DNA from: a virus
IMG/VR virus record: IMGVR_UViG_3300036859_000598
Location: 1-30,202 of that record
Reading direction: 5' to 3' (one strand)
Length of the DNA stretch: 30,202 bases
Position 1 is the stretch's first letter. Every line of letters begins with the position of its first letter. The notes beneath the pieces are model-generated. The model made no database searches, was not told the DNA's origin, and saw only the letters and a list, made by a program, of their open reading frames with translations. Made by a program: the position numbers and the translations under genes. Below are positions 756-23,600 of the stretch, piece after piece.

Positions 756-1913
756 ATGGATCTACATCCCGGGATGCCCCTCCGAGTCCTTTCCTTCTGC
801 TCCGGAGGAGGAGGGCTCGATCTCGGCGTTGGATTGGCGTTTCCAGCTTCTCGCACAGTCTGTTACGTGGAACGAGAAGCCTACGCGATCTCGGTCCTGG
901 TATCTCAAATGCAAAAGGGCGCTCTGGCTCAGGCGCCTGTGTGGAGTGATGCCTATACCTTCGATGGCAAACCATGGCGCGGCAAGGTGGATCAGCTCGT
1001 TGGGGGAACCCCTTGTCAGGACCTCTCCCTCTCCGGGAAGCGAAAGGGCCTCGATGGACCCAAGAGCCGCCTTTTTTTCCAATACCTCAGGATCCTTGAG
1101 GAGACGGAAGCTCCGCTCGCCCTCTGGGAAAACGTTGGAGGATCAGCTCGGGTTCTTCCCCGAGTCTGCAGTGAGTTTGAAAAGCGAGGTTACCGCGGGG
1201 CCTACGCCCTTGTTTATGCAGGTGATGTTGGCTCCCCTCAGAGCCGAGGACGTTACTTCCTACTCGCCGTTAGGAATGGGGTTCGCCTCATTCAGACACC
1301 GGAGGACGTGGCCAACACCTCGAGCATCGGAACGAACCAGAGCAGGGGAGACAATGGAGAAACGGCCAGGCCCCAGATTGCCGGGCGTAGCCAACCACTG
1401 GACGGCGCGGAACTGGCCTACTCCGAGGGCCTCGGATGGAGACAAGGGCAGTCCCAATCAGATAGGCTCGAAAGGGGACGTGATGCTCACCGGGGCGGTG
1501 ATGAGGTGGCCCACCCCCACAGTCAACGAGCGGCCGTCCTCGAATACCATAGCAACGCGGTGGGCAACCCCGAAGGCGCGGGACTGGAAGAGCGAGGAGG
1601 CCTCAGAAGAGACGCTCTCGGCCAATTCCAGACCTTTGAACGAACAAGCCTTGCAGGCCTGCCAGTCTGGCCCCCTGGCCAGGATGATCAAGAGCGGTGG
1701 GCTGAGATCCTCGATCGGTGGCCGTTCCTCGCGCCTGCGGTTGAATCCGGCATTCGTGGAATGGCTCATGGGGTGGCCGATCGGCTGGACGTTGTCCGAG
1801 CCCTTCGTGAACTGCGATCCTTCCGGCTCAGGGTTCTGGGGAATGGCGTTGTCCCCCTCCAAGCCTTTCATGCCATCACGGGCCTCTGGAGACACCTCTC
1901 GAGAGGGTGGTGA
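756..1913 (+). CDS. DNA (cytosine-5) methyltransferase
   Basis: A 385-residue C5-MTase that transfers a methyl group from S-adenosylmethionine to cytosine C5 in a specific DNA sequence. The motifs are in the usual order: motif I with FCSGGGGLDLG (residues 14-24, SAM binding), motif IV GGTPCQDLS with catalytic Cys87, motif VI ENV (125-127), motif VIII QSRGR (162-166) and motif X GNGVVP (362-367). The variable target-recognition region lies at about 185-335. It contains four irregular copies of a VANT/LAYS/VAHP/VGNP-type segment, each about 20-40 residues apart. An AGGAG lies 13 bp before the ATG. No restriction endonuclease is visible nearby, so it is likely a solitary phage MTase used against host restriction or for regulation. 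Its target sequence is unknown. The gene's base composition (about 55% GC in a sampled line) is lower than the structural genes. A second frame through this gene is listed separately. Confidence 0.93.
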   Translation: MDLHPGMPLRVLSFCSGGGGLDLGVGLAFPASRTVCYVEREAYAISVLVSQMQKGALAQAPVWSDAYTFDGKPWRGKVDQLVGGTPCQDLSLSGKRKGLDGPKSRLFFQYLRILEETEAPLALWENVGGSARVLPRVCSEFEKRGYRGAYALVYAGDVGSPQSRGRYFLLAVRNGVRLIQTPEDVANTSSIGTNQSRGDNGETARPQIAGRSQPLDGAELAYSEGLGWRQGQSQSDRLERGRDAHRGGDEVAHPHSQRAAVLEYHSNAVGNPEGAGLEERGGLRRDALGQFQTFERTSLAGLPVWPPGQDDQERWAEILDRWPFLAPAVESGIRGMAHGVADRLDVVRALRELRSFRLRVLGNGVVPLQAFHAITGLWRHLSRGW

Positions 1914-1920
1914 GCAGTGA
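1216..1920 (+). other. Alternate-frame ORF inside the methyltransferase gene, with WPTP-type repeats
   Basis: A second plus-strand frame stays open through the whole methyltransferase gene and ends at 1920. From nucleotide 1309 it reads WPTPRASE, WPTPRASDGDKGSPN, WPTPTVNE and WATPKARDWKSEE, then LNPAFVEWLMGWPIGWT near 1741-1795. I recall segments of this style (L/WPTPxAxD repeats and xLNPxFVEWLMGxPxGWT) from phage methyltransferase-related proteins. Here they are in the wrong frame relative to motifs I-VIII and X. The frame is open from 526, but the upstream part looks like meaningless translation. An ATG at 1216 or 1225 is a plausible start, without a convincing Shine-Dalgarno. It may be a genuine overprinted gene, a relic of an alternative frame of the recognition domain, or the product of a frameshift. 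Length alone is not evidence in GC-rich DNA; the motif series is. Confidence 0.4.
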
Positions 1921-4283: not shown

Positions 4284-4759
4284 CGAATCACCCCCGGATA
4301 GATGCGGACGGTTACGGTTGATCCGCCCGAGACGCCCACGGAATCAGCGGCGTAGAGAACAAAGCCATACCCCGTGTCCACCTCTTCCCCTGCGAATGTC
4401 TGGCATTGTTCACCGCTGATCGTTACCTGCCGATCGAGATCGGGGTTCCTCATCCATACCACCTCAAGCACGCCCCACCGGTAGGCACGCACGTAGCCCG
4501 TCCCATCGAGCGTCTCTCCCTCCTCGGCGCAGATCGTCACGAAGTAGGAGCGGAGTCCCGTCAGGGCCAGGGGCCGAACGGATGGGGCTTGCGTGTTAGG
4601 ATTGACGGTGGGCGCCGCGCGGGTGGTGGACTGCACCTCCACGAATGGCGGGTGTGAGAGCGTCTGCGCCTCCACGGTGGATCCCAGGAGGCCGAGAATC
4701 GCCAGGACGAGAAGAGCAAGGGCGGTAACGTGTCGATAGGCAATGACAACCTGTTTCAT
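4280..4759 (-). CDS. Small exported protein paired with the tail-fibre gene
   Basis: A 159-residue protein with a long hydrophobic N-terminal segment (about residues 12-30, ending LGSTVEAQ), predicted as a signal peptide or anchor. The mature part has two cysteines, and segments such as RAYRWGVLEVVWM and GYGFVLYAADSVGV suggest a small beta-sandwich. It is linked by ATGA to the 972-residue gene before it and by GTGA to the tail-fibre-like gene after it. Two consecutive signal-bearing proteins at the end of a morphogenesis operon is odd. They may work as a pair at the cell envelope or on the virion. I do not recognise a family. Confidence 0.6.
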   Translation of the reverse strand: MKQVVIAYRHVTALALLVLAILGLLGSTVEAQTLSHPPFVEVQSTTRAAPTVNPNTQAPSVRPLALTGLRSYFVTICAEEGETLDGTGYVRAYRWGVLEVVWMRNPDLDRQVTISGEQCQTFAGEEVDTGYGFVLYAADSVGVSGGSTVTVRIYPGVIR

Positions 4760-7674
4760 GACATGAGACTCCTACGGTTGGAAAGGCGCGCGGATTCGGA
4801 GAGCTCACCCTCGATCCGTCTGGAGCTCCGCACCCCGGAGGGCTTGCGGCTGGCACTGGCCTCCTCAGGAGTGAAGCCCGCTTGATAGAAGGCGAGCGCC
4901 TCGGGCGTGGCGGACTCCTCGAGGGACTCTCCGAGAAGATGGCCCAGAGAGAGTCTCTGGCGATAATCGAGTCGGCTTCCCCGAAAGGAGGCAAGGCGCT
5001 CGAGCACGGTGTTTCTCAGCTCCTCATGGAGCGCGGGATAGACGGCCCTCAGGGCCTCCACCGCTTCCTGTGTGATGGTGCCGGCCGCCATAGACTCGAG
5101 CACGCCGATCGGATTCTCCACGGCCGAGACATACCGGGCGAACCGCTCGAGCTCGGCATCATCCGGCCGGAAGGGCTTTCTCAGCGCGGGGACATCGATC
5201 GGCGCGGGAGGTGGCTGCGGGGCCTTCTCTCGGAGGAAGGCAACGGCGCGGCGCGCGGCCTCGCCCAGCTGAGCGGCCGTCTGGGGCGTGAGGTTGCCAA
5301 GCGGCGCGGTCCTTTCGGCCACCTGATCGAGAAGGCCCGTGGGGTTGTCCGCCAGGCGCGCGATCTGCTCCGCCCGCTCGAGTGTCTCCTTGGGAGAGAT
5401 GGCCTGGATCTTTCCGCGCGCCCCCTTAAGAAAGCCATCTACCGCCTTCCGGGCACGCTCCTGAGTCCTCATGGCGGATGATTCAAGGCTGGAGACGCCC
5501 CGGGCCCGCGCGGCGGCCCCCTTGTCTGCCTCGCTCGAGTAGTTGAGCCCCGCCGCCTGCATCGTCTCGCGGTAGCCCTCATCTGCAGACAGGGCACCGT
5601 GGAGTGCCCAGAGCTCGGCCTCGCCCGTCTGCGCCGCGCGCCTGAGGGCCTCGGTGAAGGGACCGAAGGGGGCCGCACCCGCCGCGGGCGTCTTCTCGGT
5701 GGCCTCCTGAACGATCTTCCGAAGGGCCCGCGCGCCCGCCCCCACCCCGCCGATCGTCCGTGCTCGGTGCATGTGGAGCGCCAGCAGTTGCGGCAACCGC
5801 TCTCGGCCCCACTTGTTGAGGATCGCTCCCGCCGCGCCAAAGAGAAGGCCCGTGGGAGAGGGCCCGCCGCCCGCCAGGAAACCCGCCGCCCCCGCGATGT
5901 TATCCGTGAGGGAAATGAAACGGTTGGACTCCCGGGCCGAGAGGCGCTTCTCGGCCATCTGCTCTAGTTCGCTCATGTCTCCATAGAGACGCTTGGCCCG
6001 CTTCCACGGTGAGAGGAGTTCCTCCGAGCCCTTCACCTTCCGCGAGAGGGCGGACACCTTCTCCTCGATCCCTGCGTTGATCATGCCCCGGAGTTTCCGG
6101 AGGGCCTCTTGCACGGGGCCCGGCTCGGCCGAGTCCCACCGGATGAAAGGATCGTAGCCGCGCTTGATCTCCTCTGCTTGCTGGAAGGAGAGCCGCTCGC
6201 CCATGCCCTCGAGGCGCTCGAGTTCCTTCTCGATCTTCGTGGCGATGCCCTCCCCCAGGGCGGGCCCGCGCTGCAGGGGCGCGAGGAGTTCCTTTCGGGC
6301 CCGCGCGGCCACCTCCTGGGGGTTGAAGAGATCCTCGGGCTGAGCCACCTCATCGAAGCGCCGCACCGCCTGGCCGATCTCCTCGGCCGCCTCCTGGCGC
6401 TTCTGTCCCAACAAACGGACCTTGTCCTCGAGCGAGACGGCCTTCTCATAGCGCGGATCCTCGAGGAGGGCGCGGGGAGCGCTCACCTCCTGGCCCTTCA
6501 TGCGGAGCCGCTGCTTGGCCGCGCGCTGAATGTCCAGATCCCTGAGGACCCAGTTTTCTGGCGTGGGCCAGTCAAGCTCGAGGGCCTCAAAGAGCCTACG
6601 TACCCGGCCCGCGTTTCGCTCCACGCCTTCCTTGAGCTGTCCCCGGAGCTTGTCCCCGAGCTGATCGTCTGCGAGCACCTCATCAAAGGCACGCACCGGA
6701 TCGGGCGCGCTTCCCTCGGGCGGGGCAGCTCGAGGCGTGGGGCCACCTGCCCCGAGCTCATCGATCAGCGTGGGCTCGGCATCCGGCCCCGCCGGCTGAG
6801 TGGCGGTGAGGGTGGGCTCGGCCTCATCGATCACCGCCTGGGTCTCTGGCGCCGCGCGCGTCTTGGCCGTCACGGTGCCGGGCTGTGTGGCCTCCTCGAG
6901 GGCCTCCACGGCTCGCGGGGCCGGGCGGGCCACCTCCTCGGCCGCGCGCGCCGCATCGTCCACCACCTCATCAGCGGCCCCGAATAGAGAGCGGAGTTTC
7001 TGGGCGCCCTTTACCGTCCCATAGCCCGTGCCGAGCCCCAGGAGCGCGCCGACCCCCACATCTGCAAGCACCTTCTCGGCCGTGGCATCCGCGCGCCCAA
7101 GGGCATCCTCGGTGATCGCGTGCCCCAGTCCTTGAAACCCGCCCTCCACCATGGCGGACACGGCCGCGCGCCGCGCGAGGCTGCCCCCCACCTGCTTTCC
7201 CACCGTGAGCCCCAGGCGAGCGACCGCGCCAGCTGGGGCTGCCTGCCCACCGGGGAGGAGCGCGGGGAGGATGGAACCCGCTATCTCCCCGCCGATCGAG
7301 GCCTCGGTGTTGCGCTTATCGAGTTCCCGGAGCGTCTCGGGGGAGACAAGGCCCGAGCGGGTGAGGAGCACGTCCGAGGCCCCGAGCGTAGCGCCTCGAG
7401 CAAGCCCGGCCGCCAGAGCCGAACCGGTGCGATCTCCATACTTACCCTGGAGCCGCTCCTCCTCGAGCTGCTTACTGGTGAGGATGCGATAGCCGCGGCC
7501 GGCCACCGCCTGGGGGGCCTCGAGGGCATCAATCGAGCCGCGGCGGCCGAGATCATCGAGCACCTCGACACGGCCCTTAGGAAGGACGTGGGTGCCGGCC
7601 GCAAGCCGCGCGTTCACCTCCTCATCCGGGATGGACTCCCACCGCTGAGAGGAGAGGTTGAAGAGCTCGGCCAT
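4756..7674 (-). CDS. Very large internal virion / ejection protein candidate
   Basis: A 972-residue protein. Residues 1-65 form a small domain (MAELFNLSSQRWESIPDEE...), followed by a Gly/Ala-rich, partly hydrophobic stretch (about 85-230) with possible amphipathic or membrane-inserting helices. A Pro/Ala/Glu linker follows (240-330), then long charged helical regions to the end. This order (membrane-active segment plus long helices) and its place after two other large helical proteins at the end of the tail operon resemble the ejection proteins of podoviruses (T7 gp14-gp16, P22 gp7/16/20). These form a DNA-delivery channel across the host envelope. I see no lytic transglycosylase or peptidase motif. 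It is followed by the signal-peptide pair through an ATGA overlap. Confidence 0.6.
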   Translation of the reverse strand: MAELFNLSSQRWESIPDEEVNARLAAGTHVLPKGRVEVLDDLGRRGSIDALEAPQAVAGRGYRILTSKQLEEERLQGKYGDRTGSALAAGLARGATLGASDVLLTRSGLVSPETLRELDKRNTEASIGGEIAGSILPALLPGGQAAPAGAVARLGLTVGKQVGGSLARRAAVSAMVEGGFQGLGHAITEDALGRADATAEKVLADVGVGALLGLGTGYGTVKGAQKLRSLFGAADEVVDDAARAAEEVARPAPRAVEALEEATQPGTVTAKTRAAPETQAVIDEAEPTLTATQPAGPDAEPTLIDELGAGGPTPRAAPPEGSAPDPVRAFDEVLADDQLGDKLRGQLKEGVERNAGRVRRLFEALELDWPTPENWVLRDLDIQRAAKQRLRMKGQEVSAPRALLEDPRYEKAVSLEDKVRLLGQKRQEAAEEIGQAVRRFDEVAQPEDLFNPQEVAARARKELLAPLQRGPALGEGIATKIEKELERLEGMGERLSFQQAEEIKRGYDPFIRWDSAEPGPVQEALRKLRGMINAGIEEKVSALSRKVKGSEELLSPWKRAKRLYGDMSELEQMAEKRLSARESNRFISLTDNIAGAAGFLAGGGPSPTGLLFGAAGAILNKWGRERLPQLLALHMHRARTIGGVGAGARALRKIVQEATEKTPAAGAAPFGPFTEALRRAAQTGEAELWALHGALSADEGYRETMQAAGLNYSSEADKGAAARARGVSSLESSAMRTQERARKAVDGFLKGARGKIQAISPKETLERAEQIARLADNPTGLLDQVAERTAPLGNLTPQTAAQLGEAARRAVAFLREKAPQPPPAPIDVPALRKPFRPDDAELERFARYVSAVENPIGVLESMAAGTITQEAVEALRAVYPALHEELRNTVLERLASFRGSRLDYRQRLSLGHLLGESLEESATPEALAFYQAGFTPEEASASRKPSGVRSSRRIEGELSESARLSNRRSLMS

Positions 7675-7681
7675 GGGCCAC

Positions 7682-9598
7682 CTACTGCGGCCGCTCGCGC
7701 GGCTGGAAGCTGGGCGCGCCTACGCGGCGGCCGGTGAAGTTGAACATCGCATCCGTATACCCGGAGGTGAAGGAGTCGAGGGCCTCCTCGAGCACCTTGC
7801 CCGTGCCCGCCTTCCACTCGAGCGGATCCTCTGGGAGGAGCGGCTCCATCACCTCAACGGTACCCTTGTCGAGAGCGCCTGTTTGCTCCAGGTTCTTGAT
7901 TGACAGGAGGGCTTGAGATCGGAGGGCGCGCCCGGTGCGCACGGCCGTGCGATTGAACGTCTCGGGCCCATAGGAGTCCCGAAGTTTGATCATTTTCTGG
8001 AGCAGGCCCGAGATCTTCTCATACCCCGTCTTGAGTTCCCTGCCCTTCTTGGCAGAGTCATCATCGAGGGCCTCGCCTATGCCCGGAATCAACCGCTTGC
8101 GTTGCTCGGGAGTGAGCGTGGCCGGATCTGCCTCGGGCCCGGCCAAGGCCAGACCAGAGGCCTTCTGTCGGGCCTTGAGGGCCTCGGTGGCGATCTGCGT
8201 CCTTCGGAGTTCAAGCTCCTGGCGCTTCAACGCGAGATCGCCCGCCTTCTGTCGGAAGTCCATGAGGGCGTTTTGAAGCTCGAGATCGAGCTTGGCCCTC
8301 ATCTCCACGCCGCGCTGCTTGGCCTCATCTCCTTGGGCATGGGCGAGGAGGATCTCGTTTCGTCCTTTGGCGAGGTTGATCGCGGCCACCTCGGCGGCGG
8401 CATCCGCCACGCGCTCATCCTGAAACCTCTGGCGCATGTAGGCGGTGAGCGTCTGTTCATTCCGGAGGGTGCCCTCGGCGGACGCAGTCTTTCGATCGAG
8501 ATCCTCGCGCTGCAGGGCCAGATCGTTGCGGATGGCCTCCATCACATAGTCAGGCCCCCCGCCAAAGCCCGAGAGGAAGGCGGAGATCCCCGCGAGCACC
8601 TTTTGGCCCGAGCTCCTCGACTTCCACCACCGATCGGGATCGATCTTCTCCTTGGAGACGCGCTCGAGCTCATCCATCCGGGAGCGGAGCTTTGCCTCCT
8701 GTGTCTCAGCCCCCTTCTTACGGATCTCCTCTTTCTGGAGCCGCTCAGCCTCCCGGGCTTCCGCCGCCTTGATCTCCTCCGTCTTTCGCGCCTCCTCGGC
8801 CGCCGCCTGGGTCGCCTCGAGGGAAGCGCGCGCGGCCGCGGCCTCCTGCAGCTTGTCGAAAGCCTGGGAGATCTTCTTTTCGCCAGCAGACGGCGCGGCG
8901 GGCTTGAATGAGGGGACACCCCCAGAACCGCCCTCGCCAGGCGCGCCCGGCACAGCTGCCCCAGCTGGGACGGCTGCAGGAGCCGCGAGGGATGGAATGG
9001 CGGCATCCTCCACGGTGAGAGGCCGTTGGCTCGGGGTGGCGGGCTTCTCCTCTCCTTGCTTGAGCGCCTCGGAGAGGGGCTTAAGTCCGAGGCGCTTGTT
9101 ACGATCGGCCTCGAGCGCAGCCGCGCGATCCCGGGCCTCCTGGCTGAAGGGCGGGGCCCAGTCCTGGAAGTGGCCTTTGATCTTGTCGAGGATCGAGGGC
9201 GCCTCCTTGGGCGTGGGTTTGCCCGTGTATTGCTCGAGCGCCTCCTCGGCGCGCGCCTGCATGAGAACGGACCGGGCCACCGGATCCGGTTCGTGCCGAT
9301 AGTCGGGATCGTTCGTAGAGAGCCGGTAGCCCTCCTGGGTGAGCTGAGTGAGGGCCTCGGGAGGAACGATGCCGCGGGAGATGGCCTCGGGCGCGCCGTC
9401 CTCTCCCAGCTGGATACGGATCTGCTCCATCTTGCCATCCGCTCGAGGGCGGAGAATCTTTCGATCCCTCTCGGGAGGCAGTGGGGCAGGCGGCTCGAGG
9501 CCTGTGGGCAGGACGGCCGAGCGAATGGGAGCCCCGCCGCCCTCGGGCTCGATGAGCCACCCTCCCGCGCTATCCTTTCCCAGAACGCGCGGCATCAC
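7682..9598 (-). CDS. Internal virion protein candidate, coiled coil
   Basis: A 638-residue protein. The N-terminal ~200 residues are Pro-rich and charged; a Pro/Ala/Gly linker is near 205-245. From about 250 to 320 there is an almost uninterrupted Ala/Glu/Arg/Lys helix, followed near 338-360 by an apolar segment (SSGQKVLAGISAFLSGFGGG) that could contact a membrane. A second long helical region covers about 370-500. The pattern and position between two other large, helical proteins suggest a component of the ejected protein set. The start is a GTG/ATG pair overlapping the previous stop; the stop lies 8 bp before the ATG of the 972-residue gene. No catalytic motif is evident. Confidence 0.6.
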   Translation of the reverse strand: MMPRVLGKDSAGGWLIEPEGGGAPIRSAVLPTGLEPPAPLPPERDRKILRPRADGKMEQIRIQLGEDGAPEAISRGIVPPEALTQLTQEGYRLSTNDPDYRHEPDPVARSVLMQARAEEALEQYTGKPTPKEAPSILDKIKGHFQDWAPPFSQEARDRAAALEADRNKRLGLKPLSEALKQGEEKPATPSQRPLTVEDAAIPSLAAPAAVPAGAAVPGAPGEGGSGGVPSFKPAAPSAGEKKISQAFDKLQEAAAARASLEATQAAAEEARKTEEIKAAEAREAERLQKEEIRKKGAETQEAKLRSRMDELERVSKEKIDPDRWWKSRSSGQKVLAGISAFLSGFGGGPDYVMEAIRNDLALQREDLDRKTASAEGTLRNEQTLTAYMRQRFQDERVADAAAEVAAINLAKGRNEILLAHAQGDEAKQRGVEMRAKLDLELQNALMDFRQKAGDLALKRQELELRRTQIATEALKARQKASGLALAGPEADPATLTPEQRKRLIPGIGEALDDDSAKKGRELKTGYEKISGLLQKMIKLRDSYGPETFNRTAVRTGRALRSQALLSIKNLEQTGALDKGTVEVMEPLLPEDPLEWKAGTGKVLEEALDSFTSGYTDAMFNFTGRRVGAPSFQPRERPQ

Positions 9599-10482: not shown

Positions 10483-13400
10483 TTACATGGTCCGGCTGGC
10501 GGGGAGCTTCCGCGCCACACCGGGAAGGATGCCAACCTCAAAGGTGAGCGCCGTCAAGGCGATGTCCCCGAGGTCCGCATCAGGATCCCCCAGGAGGCCC
10601 TGGGGAGTAAAGGTCCAGAGCAGACGGAGGGCCGTGCACTTCTGATTGGCGAGGTGCGCACGGACTGACAGCACCGTGCCGGCCCCGTTGCCGCTGTGAT
10701 CGTAGGTCTTGGTTTCGGCGGCCGAGGTATCGTCATAGTCAATGAAGACCTCGGTCTGGATCTCGGTGTCCCCATCCACGGTGCCGAGGAGCAGGAAGCG
10801 GCGGATCCGCTGGATGCCCTGGATCTTGTCAAACACAAGCCACCCGGTGCCCACCTTCACCGGAACCGATACGCCTTGCGTGAAGTCCGAGATCGATCCG
10901 CCCTCCTTGCGCACGGCCTCGGACTCCTGGAAGAGTTCTTCCCCATCCGCTCTCACCGGGCGCCCGTTCCATACCGTGAGATCTTGGGTGGGCTGCAGGG
11001 TGAAGGTTGACCATTGAGACCACCGCCAGGAGTACACGAGCGTGCGTCCCTCCTCGGTGTAGAACCTCACCTCCTGATAGGGATCGGCCAGGCTCACCGC
11101 CTGAGTGATCGTGAGGGACTTGTAGAGATCCACCCCCGAGCCGATATAGGCGCTCTCGAGGGCCCGGGTGAGCAGATAGATCCCCGAGCTCGAGCCGTAC
11201 ATGATCCCGTCTGGCATGGAGACCACCGCGCGCCAGTCCGTGCACCCAAGGGCCCCGGTGATCGCGTTGGGCTTGGAGAAGCCGTTGTCCAGGCCATTGG
11301 CGGCGGGGCCTTCCCCGGTGATCACCGCGGCGGCCTCATCGGTGAAGAGGATGAGCCGCCCGTCAAGGGAGCTGAACGCCTGGAGTTCCCCCTTCACCTC
11401 CTCGAGGCCGTACACGAGCTGATCGCTCCAGGCGGTTCCCAGGCCTGAGACAATGGGCAAGCTGTGCGCGTAGCCCCGGGCATCCTCCATCCGGGTGACA
11501 AAGAGGTAGGAGCTATGGCGATGGATCGCGCGGTAGGCGGGAGGGGGCAGGTAGTCCAGGATCCTGCCCGTGGTGTAGAGGGCCTCCCCGGCCGTGAGAT
11601 CGGCATCCGACAGAGTGTCGTAGAAGCCTGCCCACTGCTGGGCCCCGCCCGGGGGGTTGTCGGGGATGTAGCTCCAGGCCTTGCAGGTGACGGGCGCGGT
11701 GGGACTACTCACGCGATAGAACACCGTGCCATTTGCGACCGTACGATACACTATGATCCGAGTGAGGCCCCGCCTTGTCATGAGCGGCATGGGCACGTTC
11801 ACCGTGACCATCTTGGCACTCGCGAGGGTGACGGACACGGCCGGGGAGGGCGCGCTCCTGTGGAGCCGCCCCTGAGCGTCCGTCCACTCATAGAGGGCGC
11901 GGTATTGGTAGGTGCCCGCGGGCAGGCCGCTCGATCCGCTTGTGGAGGTGGTGAGGCCCTCGGGAAACCAGTGGAAGCCGTCCTCGGTGAGGCTCGAGCC
12001 ATCCCACAGGAGCGGGCAGGCCCCGCCGATGTGAAGGACGCTGTCCACCTCGAGGCGCGCCAGCTGGCAGGGCTCAACGTCCGCCTCGAGGGTGAGCTGA
12101 GAGATGCCGAGGGCGGTTGCATCAAACGCCGTCCCTCCCGAGGAGGCAAACGCGAGCCGCCCCCGCTCGGGCGCGGCAAGCTGCACCTCCCCGCTCGAGG
12201 TGAGCATGGGCCTGGGAAGGCCTGGCCCCGTGAGGCCGCCCGAGAGTGCGGCCAGGGCCCGGAGTACAACGCGGCCGGTGCTCACTTCGAGGAGGAAATA
12301 GGTGGGCTGCACTCCATCCCCGCGGCTGGTAGTGCCATAGGTGTCCAGGAAGATCGCGGGGACATACTGCCTTCCCTCGAATGAGAAGCCGTCTCCTCCG
12401 AGCCTGAGCCAGGGCACCCATTCGATCATGTCCAGCCCGGATGCCCACTCCACGATCCCCGAGGAGGTGAACTGGACGCGCTGGATCTCCGAGGCCTCAT
12501 TGGGTTCAAGGAGAGCTGTCATCGTTCCGGTGGGACCTTCCACCATGGCCACCCGGTGCAGCGTGAAACCCGCCAGGGAGCCCATGACGTGCGTGGAGCC
12601 CTGTTGAACGTATGAGGTATTGAAGACGCGGAGCTCCCCCTGTTGAGCCGTTGCGTTGCGGTACACCAGAAAGAGGCGCGTTCCGTCTGCGAGCCTGGAA
12701 AGCGTCAGGCCCTCATTCTTGGCGGTGGAGATCACCACCGGGCCCGGGGAGGTGCTCGAGGGCGGCGCTCCAGTGGAGATCGAGAGGAAGGTGATGTCAT
12801 TCCCCGAGCCGCTCGAGAGGCTGGGGGCGAAAGTCCAGATGTCAAAGACGGTATATGCGCCCGCCGAGAAGGTGATTGAAAGACCCGTGTTCACGTACGT
12901 GCCCGTGTCATCCCTCACGGTGATCGCGGTGGGCACACCCGCGGTGATGAGGATGTCCTCGGTGTTGGTGAGGTAGCCGCCCTCCGTGTAGCTCACCGAG
13001 AATCGCTTATTGCCGAGCCCGTCCGAAGTCACCGTGATCTTGATCTCCTCGAAACGCTGCGAGGAGGTTCCGGAGATCGTTGGGGTGGGCGCGCTCCCGC
13101 CCCCGATGTTGACGCCCACCGGGTAGCTCCAGGCGGCCGAGCTCGAGGTGTACGCGAGGACCGTCAGGCCACCGGCCCTCAGCACGGCGTCAAGCTCAGC
13201 CGGGTAGAGGGCGCCTGTCCTCTCGGTGGTGGTGACGTTGGTTCTCAGCTTTCCCCAGGTGAGCGCCGCGCTATACCCATCGGCGGGAGGCGTGAGGATC
13301 GGGGTGGTGTAGTTGACGGCCGTCGAATAGAGGTTCGGGCCGTCCGTGCAGAAGATCTGGAACTGGCTTGTGTTGGCCACAACGCGCATGGCCGGCCGTT

Positions 13401-13950
13401 GCTCATCCCGGTAGAGGGTGCGGATGAGCACGGCATCGGTGAGATAGGTGTTGGTGCGCGTGTCCACGATGGTGCAGCGGATCTCGTACTTCGGATAGTT
13501 TTCGGCGGACTCAATACCATTGGGGAACGCCGTGGGGTTCTCGGCCCAGACGTAGATCGAAAGGTAGTGGCTCGAGGCGTGGGCGCAGCAAAACCCCTCC
13601 TGAGGAAGCGCGCGGCGCACCGCCTGAAATCGCTGGAAGGCGAGCGGCACGCCGTCTCCATCCTGGCCGATCTGCATCCACCCGGCCTCGGAGTAGGTAT
13701 AGACGTTGCCCGAGGACCACCGGAGGAGCTCCGTTCCCCGCCGCGCTACTGCGTTGGCCTCGGTTAGGTTCGATCCGGAACGGGCAATGTCCGTGATGGG
13801 AATGGAACCCCATCTCCTGCCGATCGTCCCTTTCCTGAAGACGGCATTCTCGAGCGTGAGGAGCTTGCCGGGGATGGTGAGCTTGGAATCGGTGGCCGTC
13901 TCGAGGCCCCCGGTGAACTTCACATCCACCACCTGTGTCACGAGCGCCAT
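10483..13950 (-). CDS. Tail nozzle / stabilisation protein (P22 gp10 / T7 gp12 type)
   Basis: A 1155-residue virion protein. The N-terminus (VDVKFTGGLETATDSKLTIPGKLLTLENAVF, split here into its features) has the FxGGLxTxTD...PGKLLxLENAVF pattern seen at the start of many podoviral tail nozzle proteins, followed by GRRWGSIPI. The beta-rich body and the C-terminal stretch with a GIYLL...ESAYIG segment and WRWSQWSTF fit that family. It would form the hexameric tube between adaptor and tip. It is considerably longer than P22 gp10 or T7 gp12. A region at about 290-420 (GTSSQRFEEIKITVTSDG, then ITFSAGAYTVFDIWTF) looks like an inserted Ig-like module. Neighbouring genes (adaptor upstream, ejection proteins downstream) support the role. 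Confidence 0.75.
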   Translation of the reverse strand: MALVTQVVDVKFTGGLETATDSKLTIPGKLLTLENAVFRKGTIGRRWGSIPITDIARSGSNLTEANAVARRGTELLRWSSGNVYTYSEAGWMQIGQDGDGVPLAFQRFQAVRRALPQEGFCCAHASSHYLSIYVWAENPTAFPNGIESAENYPKYEIRCTIVDTRTNTYLTDAVLIRTLYRDEQRPAMRVVANTSQFQIFCTDGPNLYSTAVNYTTPILTPPADGYSAALTWGKLRTNVTTTERTGALYPAELDAVLRAGGLTVLAYTSSSAAWSYPVGVNIGGGSAPTPTISGTSSQRFEEIKITVTSDGLGNKRFSVSYTEGGYLTNTEDILITAGVPTAITVRDDTGTYVNTGLSITFSAGAYTVFDIWTFAPSLSSGSGNDITFLSISTGAPPSSTSPGPVVISTAKNEGLTLSRLADGTRLFLVYRNATAQQGELRVFNTSYVQQGSTHVMGSLAGFTLHRVAMVEGPTGTMTALLEPNEASEIQRVQFTSSGIVEWASGLDMIEWVPWLRLGGDGFSFEGRQYVPAIFLDTYGTTSRGDGVQPTYFLLEVSTGRVVLRALAALSGGLTGPGLPRPMLTSSGEVQLAAPERGRLAFASSGGTAFDATALGISQLTLEADVEPCQLARLEVDSVLHIGGACPLLWDGSSLTEDGFHWFPEGLTTSTSGSSGLPAGTYQYRALYEWTDAQGRLHRSAPSPAVSVTLASAKMVTVNVPMPLMTRRGLTRIIVYRTVANGTVFYRVSSPTAPVTCKAWSYIPDNPPGGAQQWAGFYDTLSDADLTAGEALYTTGRILDYLPPPAYRAIHRHSSYLFVTRMEDARGYAHSLPIVSGLGTAWSDQLVYGLEEVKGELQAFSSLDGRLILFTDEAAAVITGEGPAANGLDNGFSKPNAITGALGCTDWRAVVSMPDGIMYGSSSGIYLLTRALESAYIGSGVDLYKSLTITQAVSLADPYQEVRFYTEEGRTLVYSWRWSQWSTFTLQPTQDLTVWNGRPVRADGEELFQESEAVRKEGGSISDFTQGVSVPVKVGTGWLVFDKIQGIQRIRRFLLLGTVDGDTEIQTEVFIDYDDTSAAETKTYDHSGNGAGTVLSVRAHLANQKCTALRLLWTFTPQGLLGDPDADLGDIALTALTFEVGILPGVARKLPASRTM

Positions 13951-13959
13951 GACTGCACC

Positions 13960-14376
13960 TCAGGCGGCCAGGACCAGCAGCCGCAACCGATAGGCCACCC
14001 CATTAGAGAGGCCCGAGATGGAGGAGACGCGGATCCCCTGGAAGGTTCCGATCGTGATCGGCTCCCAGGTGAACGAGCACCCCGAGACACGCGCGCCCGT
14101 GTCCGCCACCGCCCCGAGGAAGAGCACGTCTCCAGGCGCGCCCGGGAAGCTGGCGTCAAGGGGGATCTCCTGATCAGAGAGGGGCGCGGTGAGCGAGGGA
14201 TCTTCCGCGCGCGGCCACTCGAGCACCTCCCCTCGGAAGTGTTCCTCAAAGGTGAGGCCGTGCTCGAGCACCTTCTCTCGGAGGTTCTCGAGGACGCCCC
14301 GGAGATTCCGCTCGAGCCGGGTGAGGCTCTCGGGATCCTTGGGGCCCGTGACGGGGACATAGCGCTGCATTTTCAT
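13960..14376 (-). CDS. Small virion protein between adaptor and nozzle
   Basis: A 138-residue protein linked by ATGA to the adaptor gene upstream and lying 10 bp before the nozzle gene. The first ~45 residues are a charged helix (SLTRLERNLRGVLENLREK). The remainder is beta-like, ending with GLSNGVAYRLRLLVLAA. The position is typical of small accessory structural proteins in podovirus tail operons. No family recognised. Confidence 0.6.
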   Translation of the reverse strand: MKMQRYVPVTGPKDPESLTRLERNLRGVLENLREKVLEHGLTFEEHFRGEVLEWPRAEDPSLTAPLSDQEIPLDASFPGAPGDVLFLGAVADTGARVSGCSFTWEPITIGTFQGIRVSSISGLSNGVAYRLRLLVLAA

Positions 14377-15059
14377 TCAGGGCGGCTCGAGCGGCGCGGC
14401 GTGGCACTACGGTAGAGGACATCTTGCACGCGATCGGGCTCACCCTGATCCCGCTCACTGGCCGCCTCGAGGATCTGGGCATCGAGCACCGTGAGGCGCC
14501 GCTGGAGCGCGTCCGTGGGCCGCTCCTCCTTGTCCACGCACTTGATCGCGGCCTCGAGGACGGCGCGCTCCTCCCACCCGTGGGGGAACTCGCACGTGTC
14601 ACTTGGAGCTGTGAGATAGGTGAAGGACGGGACATAGAGGATCTCCGCTGTCACCGCCTGGCCGGGCTTGGGTCTGAGCTCGAGCGTCCTCAGGCCCTTC
14701 AACCGGTAGCGGACATCCTCTGGGGACGAGGAGAACTCCTCGGCGTTCCTGAGCCGGGCGCGGTCCTTCTGGGTGAACTTGCCCATCGGGAGCCACTTCC
14801 CGCTTGAGGAGTAGACATCGATCCCCAGGAGCTTGAGGAAGTCCGAGGGCAGGGCGTAGGTCTCCACGCCCTGGGGAAAGGTGGCCTCGAGCACCGTCTC
14901 GGCATAGTCCTCAAACAGGCCGATCAGCTTCTCATGAAGATCGGACAGAGCCCGGTTCAACCACTCATCCAGCCGATCGGTGGGAACAAAGTCGCTCCCC
15001 GTCTGATCGGCTGCATGAAGGGCGCGGGCCCTGAGCGTGGTGAGGGAGACGGCGGGCAT
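14373..15059 (-). CDS. Head-tail adaptor (T7 gp11 / P22 gp4 type)
   Basis: A 228-residue protein with the characteristics of podoviral adaptors that form a ring beneath the portal. The N-terminus is helical and contains FVPTDRLDEWLNRALSDLHE. Then come FPQGVETYALPSDFLKLLGI and, later, the beta-strand/loop TLELRPKPGQAVTAEILYVP followed by a PHGWEERAVLEAAIKCVDKE helix. This succession (L/N-rich helix, ALPxDF, RPxP, a YVPxF strand, xxAxKC helix) is common to this family. AGGAGTGACCA precedes the ATG. Placed between capsid-side genes and the nozzle, as expected. Confidence 0.75.
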   Translation of the reverse strand: MPAVSLTTLRARALHAADQTGSDFVPTDRLDEWLNRALSDLHEKLIGLFEDYAETVLEATFPQGVETYALPSDFLKLLGIDVYSSSGKWLPMGKFTQKDRARLRNAEEFSSSPEDVRYRLKGLRTLELRPKPGQAVTAEILYVPSFTYLTAPSDTCEFPHGWEERAVLEAAIKCVDKEERPTDALQRRLTVLDAQILEAASERDQGEPDRVQDVLYRSATPRRSSRPE

Positions 15060-15062
15060 TGG

Positions 15063-15290
15063 TCACTCCTGCGAATAGCTGCACATCCCCACGAAGTCTC
15101 GGAGGGCCGAGGTGAGGGCGGTGGCATCCCCGCTCTTGAATGCGTCCATTACCGCCTGTCCTGCGATCTCCAGGGAGCGATCGTCCGTCATCTCCTCGCC
15201 CTCTTCCTCGGCGGCTTCCTCCTTGGGCTTGCGCTTCTCGAGTCCCGCGACGATGGCCCCGAGGGCCTTCTCACTCTTTGGCAGGGCCAT
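15063..15290 (-). CDS. Small acidic hypothetical protein
   Basis: A 75-residue protein beginning MALPKSEKALG. A GTG two codons upstream is also in frame, but AAGGTG is spaced correctly only for the ATG at 15290. The middle is strongly acidic (EEAAEEEGEEMTDD); the C-terminal half is helical (AVMDAFKSGDATALTSALRD). Small proteins of this look often occur between capsid and adaptor genes in podoviruses. It starts three bases past the upstream stop and ends 4 bp before the adaptor ATG. Function unknown. Confidence 0.6.
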   Translation of the reverse strand: MALPKSEKALGAIVAGLEKRKPKEEAAEEEGEEMTDDRSLEIAGQAVMDAFKSGDATALTSALRDFVGMCSYSQE

Positions 15291-15292
15291 GA

Positions 15293-15688
15293 TCACACCT
15301 TGGTATTGCTGGAGCCGGCTAGGTTGAGGGTGAAGTGAATGCGGTTGTTCGCATCGGCGGCCACGTTGGCCACCGCCTCGATCCCGCTCACGGCGTCCTG
15401 CTTGAGGGTGCGGATCTCGATCTTGCGGCTGGCTTCGGTGTACGCGCCGAGTTCCACGCTAAAGAGAGCCGCCGTCACGCACTGGGGGGAGACGGTGCAA
15501 CTGATGATCTTCCGAAAGGGATCGGTGAGGGACAGCTCATAGACGCCTACCCCCGTCCTCACCACCGCCACCCCCACGCCCTTCACATCTGCCGGGCTCG
15601 AGGTGCCATTGGTATCGAAGCTCCCCGCCACGATGTAGATCCCCGGGGTGAGGGCACTCACATCCCACTTGCTTGCTCCACTGGGCAT
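15293..15688 (-). CDS. Small virion protein, possible head decoration
   Basis: A 131-residue, mainly beta-strand protein (GIYIVAGSFDTNG, VGVYELSLTDPF, KIEIRTLKQDAV, NRIHFTLNLAGS). CAAGGAG precedes the ATG. It directly follows the capsid gene and its terminator-like hairpin. The position after the major capsid gene suggests a capsid decoration or head protein, as in many tailed phages, but no decisive motif is present. Confidence 0.55.
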   Translation of the reverse strand: MPSGASKWDVSALTPGIYIVAGSFDTNGTSSPADVKGVGVAVVRTGVGVYELSLTDPFRKIISCTVSPQCVTAALFSVELGAYTEASRKIEIRTLKQDAVSGIEAVANVAADANNRIHFTLNLAGSSNTKV

Positions 15689-15701
15689 GACCTGGACTCC
15701 T

Positions 15702-15740
15702 TGAAAGAAAGGGCGCGCCCCCAGTCATGAGGGCACGCCC
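15702..15740 (-). terminator. Intrinsic terminator after the capsid gene
   Basis: On the minus strand GGGCGTGCCC pairs with GGGCGCGCCC (15731-15740 with 15711-15720): ten pairs with one T-G wobble. It is followed immediately by TTTCTTTCA. It lies 18 bp past the capsid stop and just before the Shine-Dalgarno of the next gene, so some read-through must occur. A partial terminator here would give more capsid mRNA than tail mRNA. Confidence 0.7.
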
Positions 15741-15757
15741 GGTGGGTACTGCTTGAA

Positions 15758-16975
15758 TCAGACCGTGGGCAGCTGAATACGGCCGCTCCCCCCGGGGTTC
15801 TCGCACTCGAGGTTCGCGTAGTAGGCGAGTTCAAAACTGAAATCATCGTCCGTGCCACGGACAAGCTCGAGCCCATCGTCCTGGATCACGTGAGGGCACT
15901 CCTTGAGGGAGTCGAGGGTCCAATCCTCCATCCGGAGCGGGAAGGCCCAGCCGCGGGGGAAGTAGGGATCGGCCACCACCTTGCACTCGCCGCGCGGGTG
16001 GGCGAACACGATCGCGCGGAACCCGATCCCGAGCTCATTGGTGATGCGCCCGAGCTGCAGCTCCCCACGGGCGATGAGAAGGGTCTGCAGGATCTTCCAG
16101 TCATGGAAGGAGGTGAAGGCCACATCGGGATTCGCCTCATGGCGGCCCATCGTCACCAGCCCCTCGATCATTGCCTCCACGTGATCGCCCGCATCGGCCG
16201 TGTCCGTTACGCGGATGCCGGCCAGGCGCGTAGGATCCACGCTCCGGTTGACGCCGAGGAAACTGTCCGAGCCGCCCGGGGCCGTCTCGGGGATCCACGC
16301 CTGGACTCCGGTGATCTTGGCGTCATAGTCCCCCTGGGCATAGAGATAGTCCCCATCCACAGGAGACCATCCGCCCGTTGCCGTGTACGTGATCGTGCCG
16401 GCGTCGCGGTCCACTGCCGTCACGGTGCCAGTGCCCGCGCGGATCGTGCCCGAGTTCCCCGTCTTGTTCGGGTTGGCCTGCAGGATCATGTCCACTTCGA
16501 CGTTGATCACGTCCTCGGCGTTGCGCAGGGTGATCACCCCGCCCGAGGGGTTGCCATCGAGCCGCCCGAACGCGCCCGAACCATCGCCCGTCACACCGAG
16601 AGCCAGGCTCTTCTTGATCAGGAGGATCTTGGACTTCATCTCCGTAGCGTAGGCCTTGACGATCGCGCCCTTGTCCTTCTCAGAAGCGAGCATCGTCTCG
16701 CGATCGATGTAGCCCACGGCGTAATCCTTCACGCGCTCGAGGGAGAACCGCTTGCCCCGGTGGGCCGTGGAGCCGCTCCGGGCCGTGGACATGGAGGACG
16801 CACGCCCCGCGCCCGTTCCATGGATGACCGCGATCTTTTTGTCCTCCCCGTAGAATTCTGTGTCCTTGTCCACCAAGGCCAGGAAGGGCATGTCTTGCTG
16901 CACTGCATACTTCACGCCCTTGGGATAGAGCGTCTTCAACGCCCATCCGAAGGTGTTCATATTGACGATCGTCAT
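15758..16975 (-). CDS. Major capsid protein
   Basis: A 405-residue protein that fits a HK97-fold-type major capsid protein of podoviral kind. It opens MTIVNMNTFGWALKTLYPKG, continues with the VQQDMPFLALVDKDTEF segment and has a positively charged loop with GRASSMSTARSG. The central part has LALGVTGDGSGAFG and DVINVEVDMILQANPNKTG, and the C-terminal part FHDWKILQTLLIARGELQ and ADPYFPRGWAFPLRMEDWTL, as in related podovirus capsids. It follows a scaffold gene and a portal gene and is followed by a strong hairpin, all consistent with the most abundant virion protein. Confidence 0.85.
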   Translation of the reverse strand: MTIVNMNTFGWALKTLYPKGVKYAVQQDMPFLALVDKDTEFYGEDKKIAVIHGTGAGRASSMSTARSGSTAHRGKRFSLERVKDYAVGYIDRETMLASEKDKGAIVKAYATEMKSKILLIKKSLALGVTGDGSGAFGRLDGNPSGGVITLRNAEDVINVEVDMILQANPNKTGNSGTIRAGTGTVTAVDRDAGTITYTATGGWSPVDGDYLYAQGDYDAKITGVQAWIPETAPGGSDSFLGVNRSVDPTRLAGIRVTDTADAGDHVEAMIEGLVTMGRHEANPDVAFTSFHDWKILQTLLIARGELQLGRITNELGIGFRAIVFAHPRGECKVVADPYFPRGWAFPLRMEDWTLDSLKECPHVIQDDGLELVRGTDDDFSFELAYYANLECENPGGSGRIQLPTV

Positions 16976-17032
16976 GGGTGCGACCCTTCAAAGGTTGAGG
17001 GGCGCGGATCGTGGTGTGCGGCGCGCCCTATG

Positions 17033-18103
17033 TCATCGGGCCCCGCGCATGGCGATCTTCAAGCGCTGCTTTTCGGAGAGCTTGTCCAGATCGAGCGCGC
17101 GGGGCTCCCCCACATGGCTTGCCGTGAGGGTCTTGGGAGTTTTCTTCTTGCTGCCGGGCCCCGCGCTTATGCCCTTGAGTTCTTCCGGAGTAAGGCCGAG
17201 TCTCTCCAAAGCCACGGGGTTTTTCAATAGGGCTTTGACTCGGGCCCGGTTCTTCTCGAGGAGGGCCTCCTCCACATGGCCGGCAAGCTCCTTGTAGTTG
17301 ACTTCCTCCTCCTTCACCTTCCCGCGGTTCTCCACGGCCCACGCGCGGATGTAGCGCTCAACCACCGCCTCTCCCTCAGGCTCGGCCTTAAGCATGGGGA
17401 ATTCCTCCTCCTTGCTCGAGGCGATCTCTTTCCACCCCTCGGTGAGGAACACGGCCGCGCGCCGATCGCTGAGGGTCGCTTCCGCCTTCTCCCGCTCATC
17501 CTTCATGCCCTTGAGCTCAGCCTCGATCCCCTCGAGCTTCTTGAGCTTCTCCTGAACCTCGGCGGGAAGCTCCGCCCGTTGCTCCTTGGTGGGCGCCTTC
17601 CCGCCCTTGAGCATGAAATCCGTGAGCTTCTGATAGACGCTCTCGAGCTTCTCACCCGTGGCCTCCTCGAGGCCCGCGATCAGATCCTCCTTGATCCGGG
17701 CCTGACGGGCCTCGAGTTCCTTGCCGCGGGCTTCCACCTGAGCCGCGCGCGCCTCGAGGTCCTTCTCCTTCTGAGAGAGGGCGGCTTCCTTGTCTCGAAG
17801 CGCCTTGTCTCGCCTCATGGCGCTCTTGAGATCGGAGGTGCTCGGCTTCTCCTCCCCGGGCTTACCCTTCTTGCCATCGCCTGCAGCGGCCTTCCCATCG
17901 CCCTCGAGCTTCTTGCCGTCCTCGCCCGGCTCCTCGCCCGGCTCCTCGCCCGGCTCCTCGCCCGGCTCCTCGCCCGGCTCCTCGAGGTTGTCGAGGTTGT
18001 CGAGGTTGGTGATCCGCACCTCCTCAGAGGTACTACCTTCCTGGCCCTCGCTCCCGTCTGCGTTCTGCTCTCCTCCCGTTGCTCCCTGCGTCTTTACGGC
18101 CAC
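17033..18103 (-). CDS. Scaffolding protein
   Basis: A 356-residue, highly charged protein between portal and capsid genes, the standard scaffold position. The order is: an N-terminal disordered region with five Glu-Pro-Gly-Glu units (about residues 42-62), a Lys/Gly-rich linker, a long coiled coil (about 100-240; KALRDKEAALSQKEKDLEAR), and a basic C-terminal end (KLSEKQRLKIAMRGAR). The C-terminus would bind the capsid protein, as in P22/phi29-type scaffolds. A GTG at 18103 preceded by AAGGAGG with 5-bp spacing is chosen over an upstream TTG at 18136. No protease motif is seen. Confidence 0.75.
   Translation of the reverse strand: MAVKTQGATGGEQNADGSEGQEGSTSEEVRITNLDNLDNLEEPGEEPGEEPGEEPGEEPGEDGKKLEGDGKAAAGDGKKGKPGEEKPSTSDLKSAMRRDKALRDKEAALSQKEKDLEARAAQVEARGKELEARQARIKEDLIAGLEEATGEKLESVYQKLTDFMLKGGKAPTKEQRAELPAEVQEKLKKLEGIEAELKGMKDEREKAEATLSDRRAAVFLTEGWKEIASSKEEEFPMLKAEPEGEAVVERYIRAWAVENRGKVKEEEVNYKELAGHVEEALLEKNRARVKALLKNPVALERLGLTPEELKGISAGPGSKKKTPKTLTASHVGEPRALDLDKLSEKQRLKIAMRGAR
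17921..18008. repeat. Adjacent 12-bp and 9-bp tandem repeats in the scaffold gene
   Basis: Five perfect copies of the 12-bp unit CTCGCCCGGCTC (plus-strand reading) fill 17921-17980. They are followed directly by three perfect copies of the 9-bp unit TCGAGGTTG starting at 17982. Both periods are multiples of three and therefore only lengthen the repetitive protein segments (Glu-Glu-Pro-Gly and Asn-Leu-Asp/Glu). Copy number probably varies between relatives through slippage. Confidence 0.9.
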
Positions 18104-18132
18104 GTGCGCCTCCTTGTTGAGAGGTGAAACTA

Positions 18133-20079
18133 TCAAGCTGCAGCTACAGGCGCCTGCCCAGCTGGCGCGGCGGCCGGAGGTGCGCCCGCCTGAGCGGCAT
18201 CCCTAGCGGCTTCCGCCTCCATGCGCCGCACCATGAAACGGGCCTGCTCCATCCAGCGGCGGAAGAGTTCGAGCACCTCCTCGGGCGCCTTCACCGCGCG
18301 CGCCCGGAGGTATTCACTCTGCATCCGCTTGATTCCGTACTTGAGATCCTGGAACGGCTCGGGCGGCTCATAGGCTTCCGCCTCCTCGCCCTCAGGCGCA
18401 TCGAGGAACCTCTCGACAAGCGCGTCTATGTCGTCTCGCGCGGCCGTCACCACATCCGAGGCCGCCACGAGATCAGGCATGTCCAGGAGGCGCCTGTAAT
18501 CGAGCGCATCGATCGCCCCATCATCAAAGAGCTCACGCACGGCCTGGCGCCGCGCGGCGGGCTGAGTGGGGAGGCTCGAGCTCGAGAAGATCTTCAGGAC
18601 AAAGGCGTCCTCATCGAGGGAGACCTCCTGCCATTTGATCCGCTCGGTGTAGCGCGCGCGGGGAACCTGGACATCAATCGGCTCTCCTGCCTCATCCGCC
18701 ACCCGGGCCAGTGCGATCGAGAGGTGGGCACAGTCCTCAAAGAAGGCCTCCCACTCCTGGTGTACCAGGGCGAACCGCTCGGATTCGGTATCGTTGTACT
18801 CACGCAAGGCCGCACCTGAGTTGAGCCCGGCCGGCTTCTTGGCGGCCACGCTCATCTGCGAGATCCCCACGGACTCATACCCCTCGGCAATCGCGCTCTT
18901 GTACATGGTGAAGAGTTCGGGGGGGATCACGTTGCCGGTAAGGACCTGGGGCGGCTCCATCCCCTCGAGGATGATGCCCGGCTCATTGGTGAGCTTCTTG
19001 ATGTTGATCTTGGATCCGCTCCGAACGAAGTAGCGGGCCACGGACATCAGCCGCGCGGTATCCTCGATGTTGCGCAAGATCGAATTGATGGCCCTCTGGC
19101 GCGGCGCTAGGAGTTCCGCCACGCCCTGAGCGTAGAAGCCGCGGCGCCTGTGAGCGAACCGGAAGAACACGAAGGGGAAGCGCGAGAGGTTCCACTCCTC
19201 ATCGAGGATCGTGAGGTTCTCGATGCAGATGGCATGTCTCCCGTCCTCGGCCCCCGGGTAGCTGGGCAAGCGCCAGATCTCTTGCACCTCCACCACATCC
19301 CCCAGCTGGGCGAGGTTCTCGAAATGCTTCTCGGGGTGACTCGATCTCTTGGCGATCTCCACCATCTCGAGGGCGTCCGAGAGGCGCTTTGCGTCCCATG
19401 GATCGTCACTCTCCGGGCCGTGCCAGTCCTCGATCATCCCGCGCACTACCTCCCGGGAGACGGTGCGCGTATGCAGGAGGGTGCGCGGCTCTTTCGCCCG
19501 GCCGTCCATGGCCCCGACCTTCACCTCATCGGGGTCCACCTTCTCAAAGCAGATCCTCCCGTCTGCCACGTACGCCTTGAGTACACCCAAATCTCTCACT
19601 GTCCCATCATGGAAGGCCTCTTGGGCCTTCCTGTAGAGGTTGGTGGAGTGAAATACCCCATACACCCACCGATCGAGCCGCGCGGCGCGCCGTTGCTGGC
19701 TCCAGGTTCCTCCATCGGTGAGGAAAGTGGCCTTGGGCTTGTTCTTGGAGATCTTGGCGGCCAGGGCTTCCACCGCGCCCCGGATCAGGTTGTAGGAGAG
19801 GCTTCCCCATTCGTTCCAGGTGGGGCGCATGTCGTAGCCATCTCCCACCACGTCATAGCGATCATCCCGATCACCAAAGAGGGCGGTAAAGAAGGCGTTT
19901 CGGGTGCGGCGCCTTCTCTGCTCCTCCTCCATGGCATCGGCCAGGGTAAACACCTCCTTGTGCACCTCGCCCGAGGGCGCCTTCCACCAATACCCGCGGC
20001 TGTTCCCATCATCGGAGATGGGCTTGTCCTGCCCGCCCTCCTCTGTCTCATCGTTCACCGCTGAGTGTCGCTTGGGCAT
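18133..20079 (-). CDS. Portal protein
   Basis: A 648-residue protein located between terminase and scaffold genes. It has the pattern of podovirus-type portals: an early RRRRTRNAFFTALFGDRDDRY, then NEWGSLSYNLIRGAVEALAAKISKNKPKATFLTDGG (read in parts), GTVRDLGVLKAYV, and the central FPFVFFRFAHRRRGFYAQG followed by LLAPRQRAINSILRNIED. It then has GMEPPQVLTGNVIPPELF and GISQMSVAAKKPAGLNSGAA, typical of the stem/clip region. The C-terminus is Ala/Pro-rich. It would form the dodecameric ring for DNA packaging and tail attachment. GGGAG precedes the ATG. Confidence 0.85.
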   Translation of the reverse strand: MPKRHSAVNDETEEGGQDKPISDDGNSRGYWWKAPSGEVHKEVFTLADAMEEEQRRRRTRNAFFTALFGDRDDRYDVVGDGYDMRPTWNEWGSLSYNLIRGAVEALAAKISKNKPKATFLTDGGTWSQQRRAARLDRWVYGVFHSTNLYRKAQEAFHDGTVRDLGVLKAYVADGRICFEKVDPDEVKVGAMDGRAKEPRTLLHTRTVSREVVRGMIEDWHGPESDDPWDAKRLSDALEMVEIAKRSSHPEKHFENLAQLGDVVEVQEIWRLPSYPGAEDGRHAICIENLTILDEEWNLSRFPFVFFRFAHRRRGFYAQGVAELLAPRQRAINSILRNIEDTARLMSVARYFVRSGSKINIKKLTNEPGIILEGMEPPQVLTGNVIPPELFTMYKSAIAEGYESVGISQMSVAAKKPAGLNSGAALREYNDTESERFALVHQEWEAFFEDCAHLSIALARVADEAGEPIDVQVPRARYTERIKWQEVSLDEDAFVLKIFSSSSLPTQPAARRQAVRELFDDGAIDALDYRRLLDMPDLVAASDVVTAARDDIDALVERFLDAPEGEEAEAYEPPEPFQDLKYGIKRMQSEYLRARAVKAPEEVLELFRRWMEQARFMVRRMEAEAARDAAQAGAPPAAAPAGQAPVAAA

Positions 20080-20091
20080 CGGAGCTCCCGC

Positions 20092-21878: not shown

Positions 21879-21889
21879 GCTCGGCTACC

Positions 21890-23597: not shown

Positions 23598-23600
23598 GGG

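Follow-up and report, generated by a model that had tools for sequence, protein, structure and literature searches.

Does the methyltransferase gene near the start of this viral DNA encode one protein, with a second frame open by accident, or do two proteins share the same bases? The window (i.e., the whole stretch of DNA analyzed, 30,202 nucleotides) came to attention through an original prediction, which had noted VANT, LAYS, VAHP and VGNP repeats in the methyltransferase frame and WPTP-style repeats in the +1 frame, and had proposed either that two proteins are encoded or that the recognition domain switches frame. The repeats of both frames are all where they had been placed. The first frame, alpha (plus strand, 756-1913, ATG to TGA, 385 aa), reads as a C5-cytosine methyltransferase with motifs I-VIII and X, including the catalytic PCQ of motif IV (1011-1019), the ENV of motif VI (1128-1136), the RGRY of motif VIII (1245-1256) and the LGNGVVP of motif X (1836-1856; GNGVVP is invariant in the A1 alignment). 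The second frame, beta, lies +1 to alpha on the same strand and is stop-free over 526-1920, well outside the interval originally flagged; from a plausible GTG start to its TGA it spans 751-1920 (389 aa). A Shine-Dalgarno-like AGGAG at 738-742 stands 8 nt 5′ of GTG 751 and 13 nt 5′ of ATG 756. Beta carries WPTP units at 1309-1320, 1414-1425 (the second unit, WPTPRASDGDKGSPN) and 1507-1518, a WATP unit at 1561-1572, and motif IX, LNPAFVEWLMGWPIGWT, at 1741-1791, where alpha reads the identical bases as ESGIRGMAHGVADRLD. In the alpha frame the DNA of the beta repeats (1294-1740) forms a linker, which holds VANT (1308-1319), LAYS (1413-1424), VAHP (1506-1517) and VGNP (1560-1571), all on the plus strand.

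Long accidental +1 ORFs are common in high-GC genes, and base composition together with codon bias might explain the open second frame, with alpha as the only real protein. As a null, synonymous codons were shuffled with the alpha protein unchanged, and +1-frame stops were tallied as far as the stop codon of beta. Shuffles of the window had a mean of 3.2 stops in this frame and were fully open in only 2% of cases; across 80 genes, shuffled beta frames held ~4 stops on average vs. 0 observed. Because these 80 genes had been chosen via beta homology, which is a selection bias, the analysis was repeated with an alpha-only search, and the beta profile matched in the +1 frame at 80/80 of the loci so retrieved from viral contigs (the query was the alpha alignment; a single alpha protein gave no match in the viral contigs). 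The similarity of beta to its homologues had a median of 120 bits vs. 32 for shuffles, so that beta similarity to the window is far above the level forced by alpha conservation alone. The null also stays open in some GC-rich relatives (L338, p 0.21; L004, p 0.09); openness alone is not significant for these members, and the evidence there is motif and homology. At low GC, by contrast with a composition effect, beta is kept: it is free of stops in L038 and L081, whose third frames contain 27 and 33, respectively, and Lacticaseibacillus phage R9.1 (48% GC) retains beta as well.

The PF00145 match to alpha (1.6e-27) is confined to aa 10-178, the similarity of the alpha profile to M.HaeIII and M.HhaI ends at motif VIII, and the TIGR00675 match likewise stops there. 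Thus, alpha has what characterizes a C5 methyltransferase up to this point (motifs I-VIII, with PCQ and ENV), but a recognition domain and motif IX are not found on the core chain, and motif IX is in the +1 frame. Beta itself matched phrog_1008 (3e-16, “DNA methyltransferase”) and phrog_27243 (6e-12, function unknown), whose listed annotation is silent on a second-frame origin, and matched no family in Pfam or NCBIfam. It has 204 viral relatives. Most relatives have 1-9 WPTP units per gene with a median spacing of 31 residues, and the best-conserved part of beta is the block RRLNPxFVEWLMGWPxGWT, at whose bases the alpha reading has few invariant residues. Judged by its sequence, the LNPxFVEWLMGWPxGW stretch of beta is the C5-methyltransferase motif IX that alpha lacks: in relatives with a single frame it lies before motif X with the spacing that would be expected, and the C-terminal profile of these fused relatives aligns with canonical C5 methyltransferases over motifs IX-X (hhalign P 3.6e-5). 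As negative controls we used canonical C5 methyltransferases with a full-profile PF00145 match, taken from the same bacterial genomes and, at random, from Alphaproteobacteria; these mostly have a standard motif IX in frame, and their +1 ORFs are not longer than the shuffle null. Genes with a PF00145 match ending near position 168 have a long +1 ORF, which mostly contains motif IX.

A codon-rate analysis, the check suggested with the original prediction, was carried out on 22 disjoint pairs of relatives (each sequence in one pair, the pairs not being phylogenetically independent), with changes classed by their effect in both frames through a four-class counting that re-implements OLGenie in simplified form. 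Relatives were used because the nearest homologues of the window are only ~40% identical to it, so that the conclusion holds at the family level. Purifying selection was detected in both frames, with a marked division along the gene. In the core, the alpha ratio (dNN/dSN) was 0.17 [0.15-0.20] and the beta ratio (dNN/dNS) 0.53 [0.46-0.60]; in the repeat region these became 0.82 [0.68-1.03] for alpha and 0.21 [0.16-0.25] for beta, and over the last 60 codons 0.30 and 0.38, respectively. Substituting the unused third frame for beta gave ratios of 1.7-2.3. A scan located an abrupt switch at about alpha codon 180, which is the WPTP onset (alpha 1.60, beta 0.15); sub-windows of the alpha linker had dNN/dSN of 1.60 and 0.80, and constraint goes back toward alpha over motif X. 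The N-terminal part of beta is under purifying selection too (0.39-0.84 per window). The original prediction had taken the VANT/LAYS/VAHP/VGNP stretch as the recognition region, which does not fit with these values: because the alpha frame is near-neutral there in the family, the recognition region is assigned to the WPTP frame. On the evidence of selection, the alpha stretch is a tolerated by-product, the WPTP frame being the protein maintained over these bases. With similarity and selection both above the null, beta kept in low-GC members, and canonical methyltransferases devoid of the second ORF, we regard it as extremely improbable that alpha alone is real.

The beta start is conserved as well. 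An ATG, GTG or TTG stands 1-2 codons before a conserved W in 202/202 scored genes (i.e., those with a recognizable W[LIVF]xxP-type motif; 29 without it were left out), and 80 of these 202 share an ATGTGG in which beta begins from the ATG and alpha from the overlapping GTG. The second frame is therefore conserved, open beyond chance and provided with its own start, and both frames are under purifying selection (at the family level, by the simplified method), as expected for an overprinted gene. Of the two options in the original prediction, the encoding of two proteins is hence strongly supported, by the full-length second ORF, its conserved start and the selection in both frames.

Programmed frameshifting would be another way to use both frames: alpha ribosomes would move to +1 after motif VIII and produce a core-WPTP-IX fusion, beta not being a separate protein. 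Two observations are in line with this, namely that actinophage relatives hold core, WPTP repeats and motif IX in one chain, and that the core and beta frames meet at one place, after motif VIII. However, beta has its own 5′ start codon in every scored gene. Its N-terminal part lies before any position at which a shift would be of use; it shows purifying selection and is in part predicted to fold. The shift product in a gene of the window type would also be without motif X. The conserved starts fit better with separate initiation than with frameshifting, as far as sequence can tell, and we consider frameshifting unlikely.

Relatives display three combinations for the core, motif IX and motif X, [0,0,0], [0,+1,+1] and [0,+1,0]. 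The last, which is that of the window, was found in 78/80 viral loci retrieved by beta (the remaining 2 have a broken alpha), in 68/80 viral loci retrieved by alpha (3 others have a broken alpha), and in 79/80 bacterial genome loci retrieved by alpha, mostly from Alphaproteobacteria. A single frame holds the core, the repeats and both motifs IX and X in Mycobacterium phages Saroj and mcgavigan, as it does in 38 more viral loci; L001, L093 and L254 are examples of this layout. Motifs IX and X are both in the second frame in Arthrobacter phage DrYang (L089), L122 and L160; for DrYang and L122, this second frame consists of the repeats, IX and X, a split similar to that of M.AquI. As one-frame and two-frame relatives share modules, it is the frame assignment that varies. 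A switch of frame in evolution, as originally proposed, is thus borne out by the three patterns; its proposed role as a rapid changer of specificity found no support here, and close relatives look instead like products of cassette exchange. For L015/L018, L021/L077, L030/L052 and other pairs, the cores are 80-90% identical over ~170-190 residues and the local alignment goes no further, which suggests from these sequences that the whole recognition cassette may be exchanged between close relatives.

Two side observations concern individual members of these groups. DrYang has three successive genes (734-4219 of L089), each annotated as a DNA methyltransferase, the first two being the core and WPTP-IX-X in different frames with a ~70 nt overlap. 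Mycobacterium phage Kingsley (L092, 1360-2677) has two overlapping ORFs for the same methyltransferase that is one ORF in mcgavigan (L093, 1361-2677); the difference is a frame change at motif VIII, from either a natural indel or a sequencing error.

An intact methyltransferase next to a closed second frame, which the original prediction had named as the finding that would speak against it, was not seen in the family. The reverse did: five loci (L080, L084, L104, L107 and L163) have many stops in alpha between motifs VIII and X, with beta intact through motif IX. These broken alphas are unlikely to be sequencing artefacts, because an indel error would hit both frames. At the same five loci, motif X is left as a separate short ORF.

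Beta could alternatively be an overprinted protein independent of the methyltransferase, for instance an anti-restriction or regulatory protein. Its distinct N-terminal domain and the lack of Pfam or NCBIfam matches would agree with this. In the AlphaFold model of beta, helices are confident at residues 31-60 (at least 90 pLDDT) and at motif IX; over the repeats, confidence is low to moderate. Against such independence, beta bears the motif IX missing from alpha, relatives fuse the same repeats and motif IX in frame to the core and motif X, and the recognition region shows near-neutral change in alpha; a function for beta outside the methyltransferase is, in our view, improbable. The single-frame type was modeled (AlphaFold) on L254, a viral-contig relative close to Saroj: the core and motifs IX-X are confident (85-95), and the repeats are mostly below 35. 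Foldseek aligned only the catalytic core of this fused model, to M.HhaI and M.HaeIII, and returned no meaningful match for the low-confidence beta model; the beta profile had chance-level matches only among PDB sequences. The WPTP units are therefore proposed as a putative target-recognition domain from their position and selection, and not from structure.

In the light of these results, with both frames and their starts conserved, constraint passing from alpha to beta at the repeats, and motif IX confined to beta and motif X to alpha, the window probably specifies, by a full-length same-strand gene overlap, a C5-cytosine DNA methyltransferase that is a heterodimer of the M.EcoHK31I type. A single ribosome-binding site would serve two starts that differ in frame and are separated by 5 nt. 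Initiation at ATG 756 would give alpha, which would be responsible for cofactor binding and catalysis (motifs I-VIII) and would continue through a passive linker to motif X. Initiation at GTG 751 would give beta, in which a small helical domain at the N-terminus is followed by the WPTP repeats (the putative target-recognition region) and then by motif IX. Beta may then dock on alpha and provide the recognition domain absent from it, and the enzyme would presumably modify phage DNA against host restriction.

Two-polypeptide C5 methyltransferases are known: M.EcoHK31I, whose specificity is YGGCCR, requires both of its polypeptides for methylation, and M.EaeI is similarly organized. Lee, Kam and Shaw reportedly described in 1995 that the small polypeptide of M.EcoHK31I comes from a different frame within the gene for the large one. 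Motifs I-VIII and X are on the large polypeptide and motif IX on the small one (PMC3404938), and at the sequence level the window resembles this arrangement, alpha having motifs I-VIII and X without IX, and the second ORF having IX. Unlike in M.EcoHK31I, beta spans the whole alpha gene, starting a few bases away, and has WPTP repeats; in addition, the predicted recognition domain of M.EcoHK31I is in the large subunit (PMC3404938), whereas selection puts the recognition region of the window in beta. As in M.AquI, the catalytic and recognition halves would be on two polypeptides (for the window, a prediction), but the small subunit of M.AquI bears motif X too (PMC3404938), which in the window is in alpha; the AquI-type second frame is that of L089, L122 and L160. 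The single-chain enzymes of actinophages, gp68 of Mycobacterium phage Saroj and its mcgavigan counterpart, have the same core, LLPTP/WPTP repeats, IX and X as the window, but with everything in one frame and no full-length second ORF. Compared to these systems, what is new is that the two frames overlap over their full length from starts that almost coincide, with WPTP repeats in beta, and likewise the hand-over of selection between frames, the varied frame arrangements, and the breadth among phages and prophages.

This breadth is considerable, as hundreds of genes in phages and prophages share the two-frame layout, mostly with only one of the frames annotated. Distant +1 overlaps with WPTP-like units and an IX-like block were found in Acinetobacter phage ABMM1, Salmonella phage S9-5, Pseudomonas phage phPA-G, phage C75C1, a Manatee Spring phage, Bacteroides phage BS-TP4 and Lacticaseibacillus phage R9.1, and likewise in Rhodobacter phages and a Rhodoplanes plasmid. 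A literature search for overprinted methyltransferases in phages found none. To our knowledge, full-length same-strand overlaps have rarely been demonstrated in cellular or tailed-phage genomes; here such an overlap extends across hundreds of loci and many hosts, with labor clearly divided between the frames. It is tempting to speculate, though with less than even confidence, that the WPTP array consists of interchangeable recognition modules, whose gain, loss or swap, along with frame moves, would generate multi-specific two-frame methyltransferases, and that, across many phyla, mobile C5 methyltransferases may be generally built on this overlap, which has gone largely unrecognized.

The layout accounts for many phage “DNA cytosine methyltransferases” that match Pfam over the first 170 residues only. 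WPTP-style and VADP/VANT-style methyltransferases in databases can be one DNA read in two frames, of which pipelines retain one; cloning the annotated ORF alone, or codon-optimizing it, may ruin the other subunit. Specificity evolution in a dual-coded enzyme also becomes directly testable. Either frame may be the one that is annotated; for Acidovorax phage Alfacinha3, Synechococcus phage Ssp-JY39 and Pseudomonas phage phPA-G, it is beta that was entered as the CDS. Beta-frame CDSs are deposited at 1409-2575 of L002 (OP131587.1), 1478-2593 of L003 (PP438429.1) and 1739-2467 of L333 (PP083311.1), the true methyltransferase frame of each being without annotation; in OP131587.1, the beta frame carries the label “cytosine-specific methyltransferase”.

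Downstream in the window, a RusA-like Holliday junction resolvase gene occupies 1917-2408 (phrog_34 match, 5.6e-8). Its GTG start at 1917 overlaps the beta stop (TGA, 1918-1920), an arrangement which suggests that the resolvase may be translationally coupled to beta rather than to alpha, as in coupled phage genes. Further along, large proteins on the minus strand (e.g., 4756-7674, 7682-9598 and 10483-13950) had no PHROG match, and a head and packaging module follows at 14373-24887, also on the minus strand, with weak PHROG matches to a structural protein, major head protein, portal and terminase large subunit.
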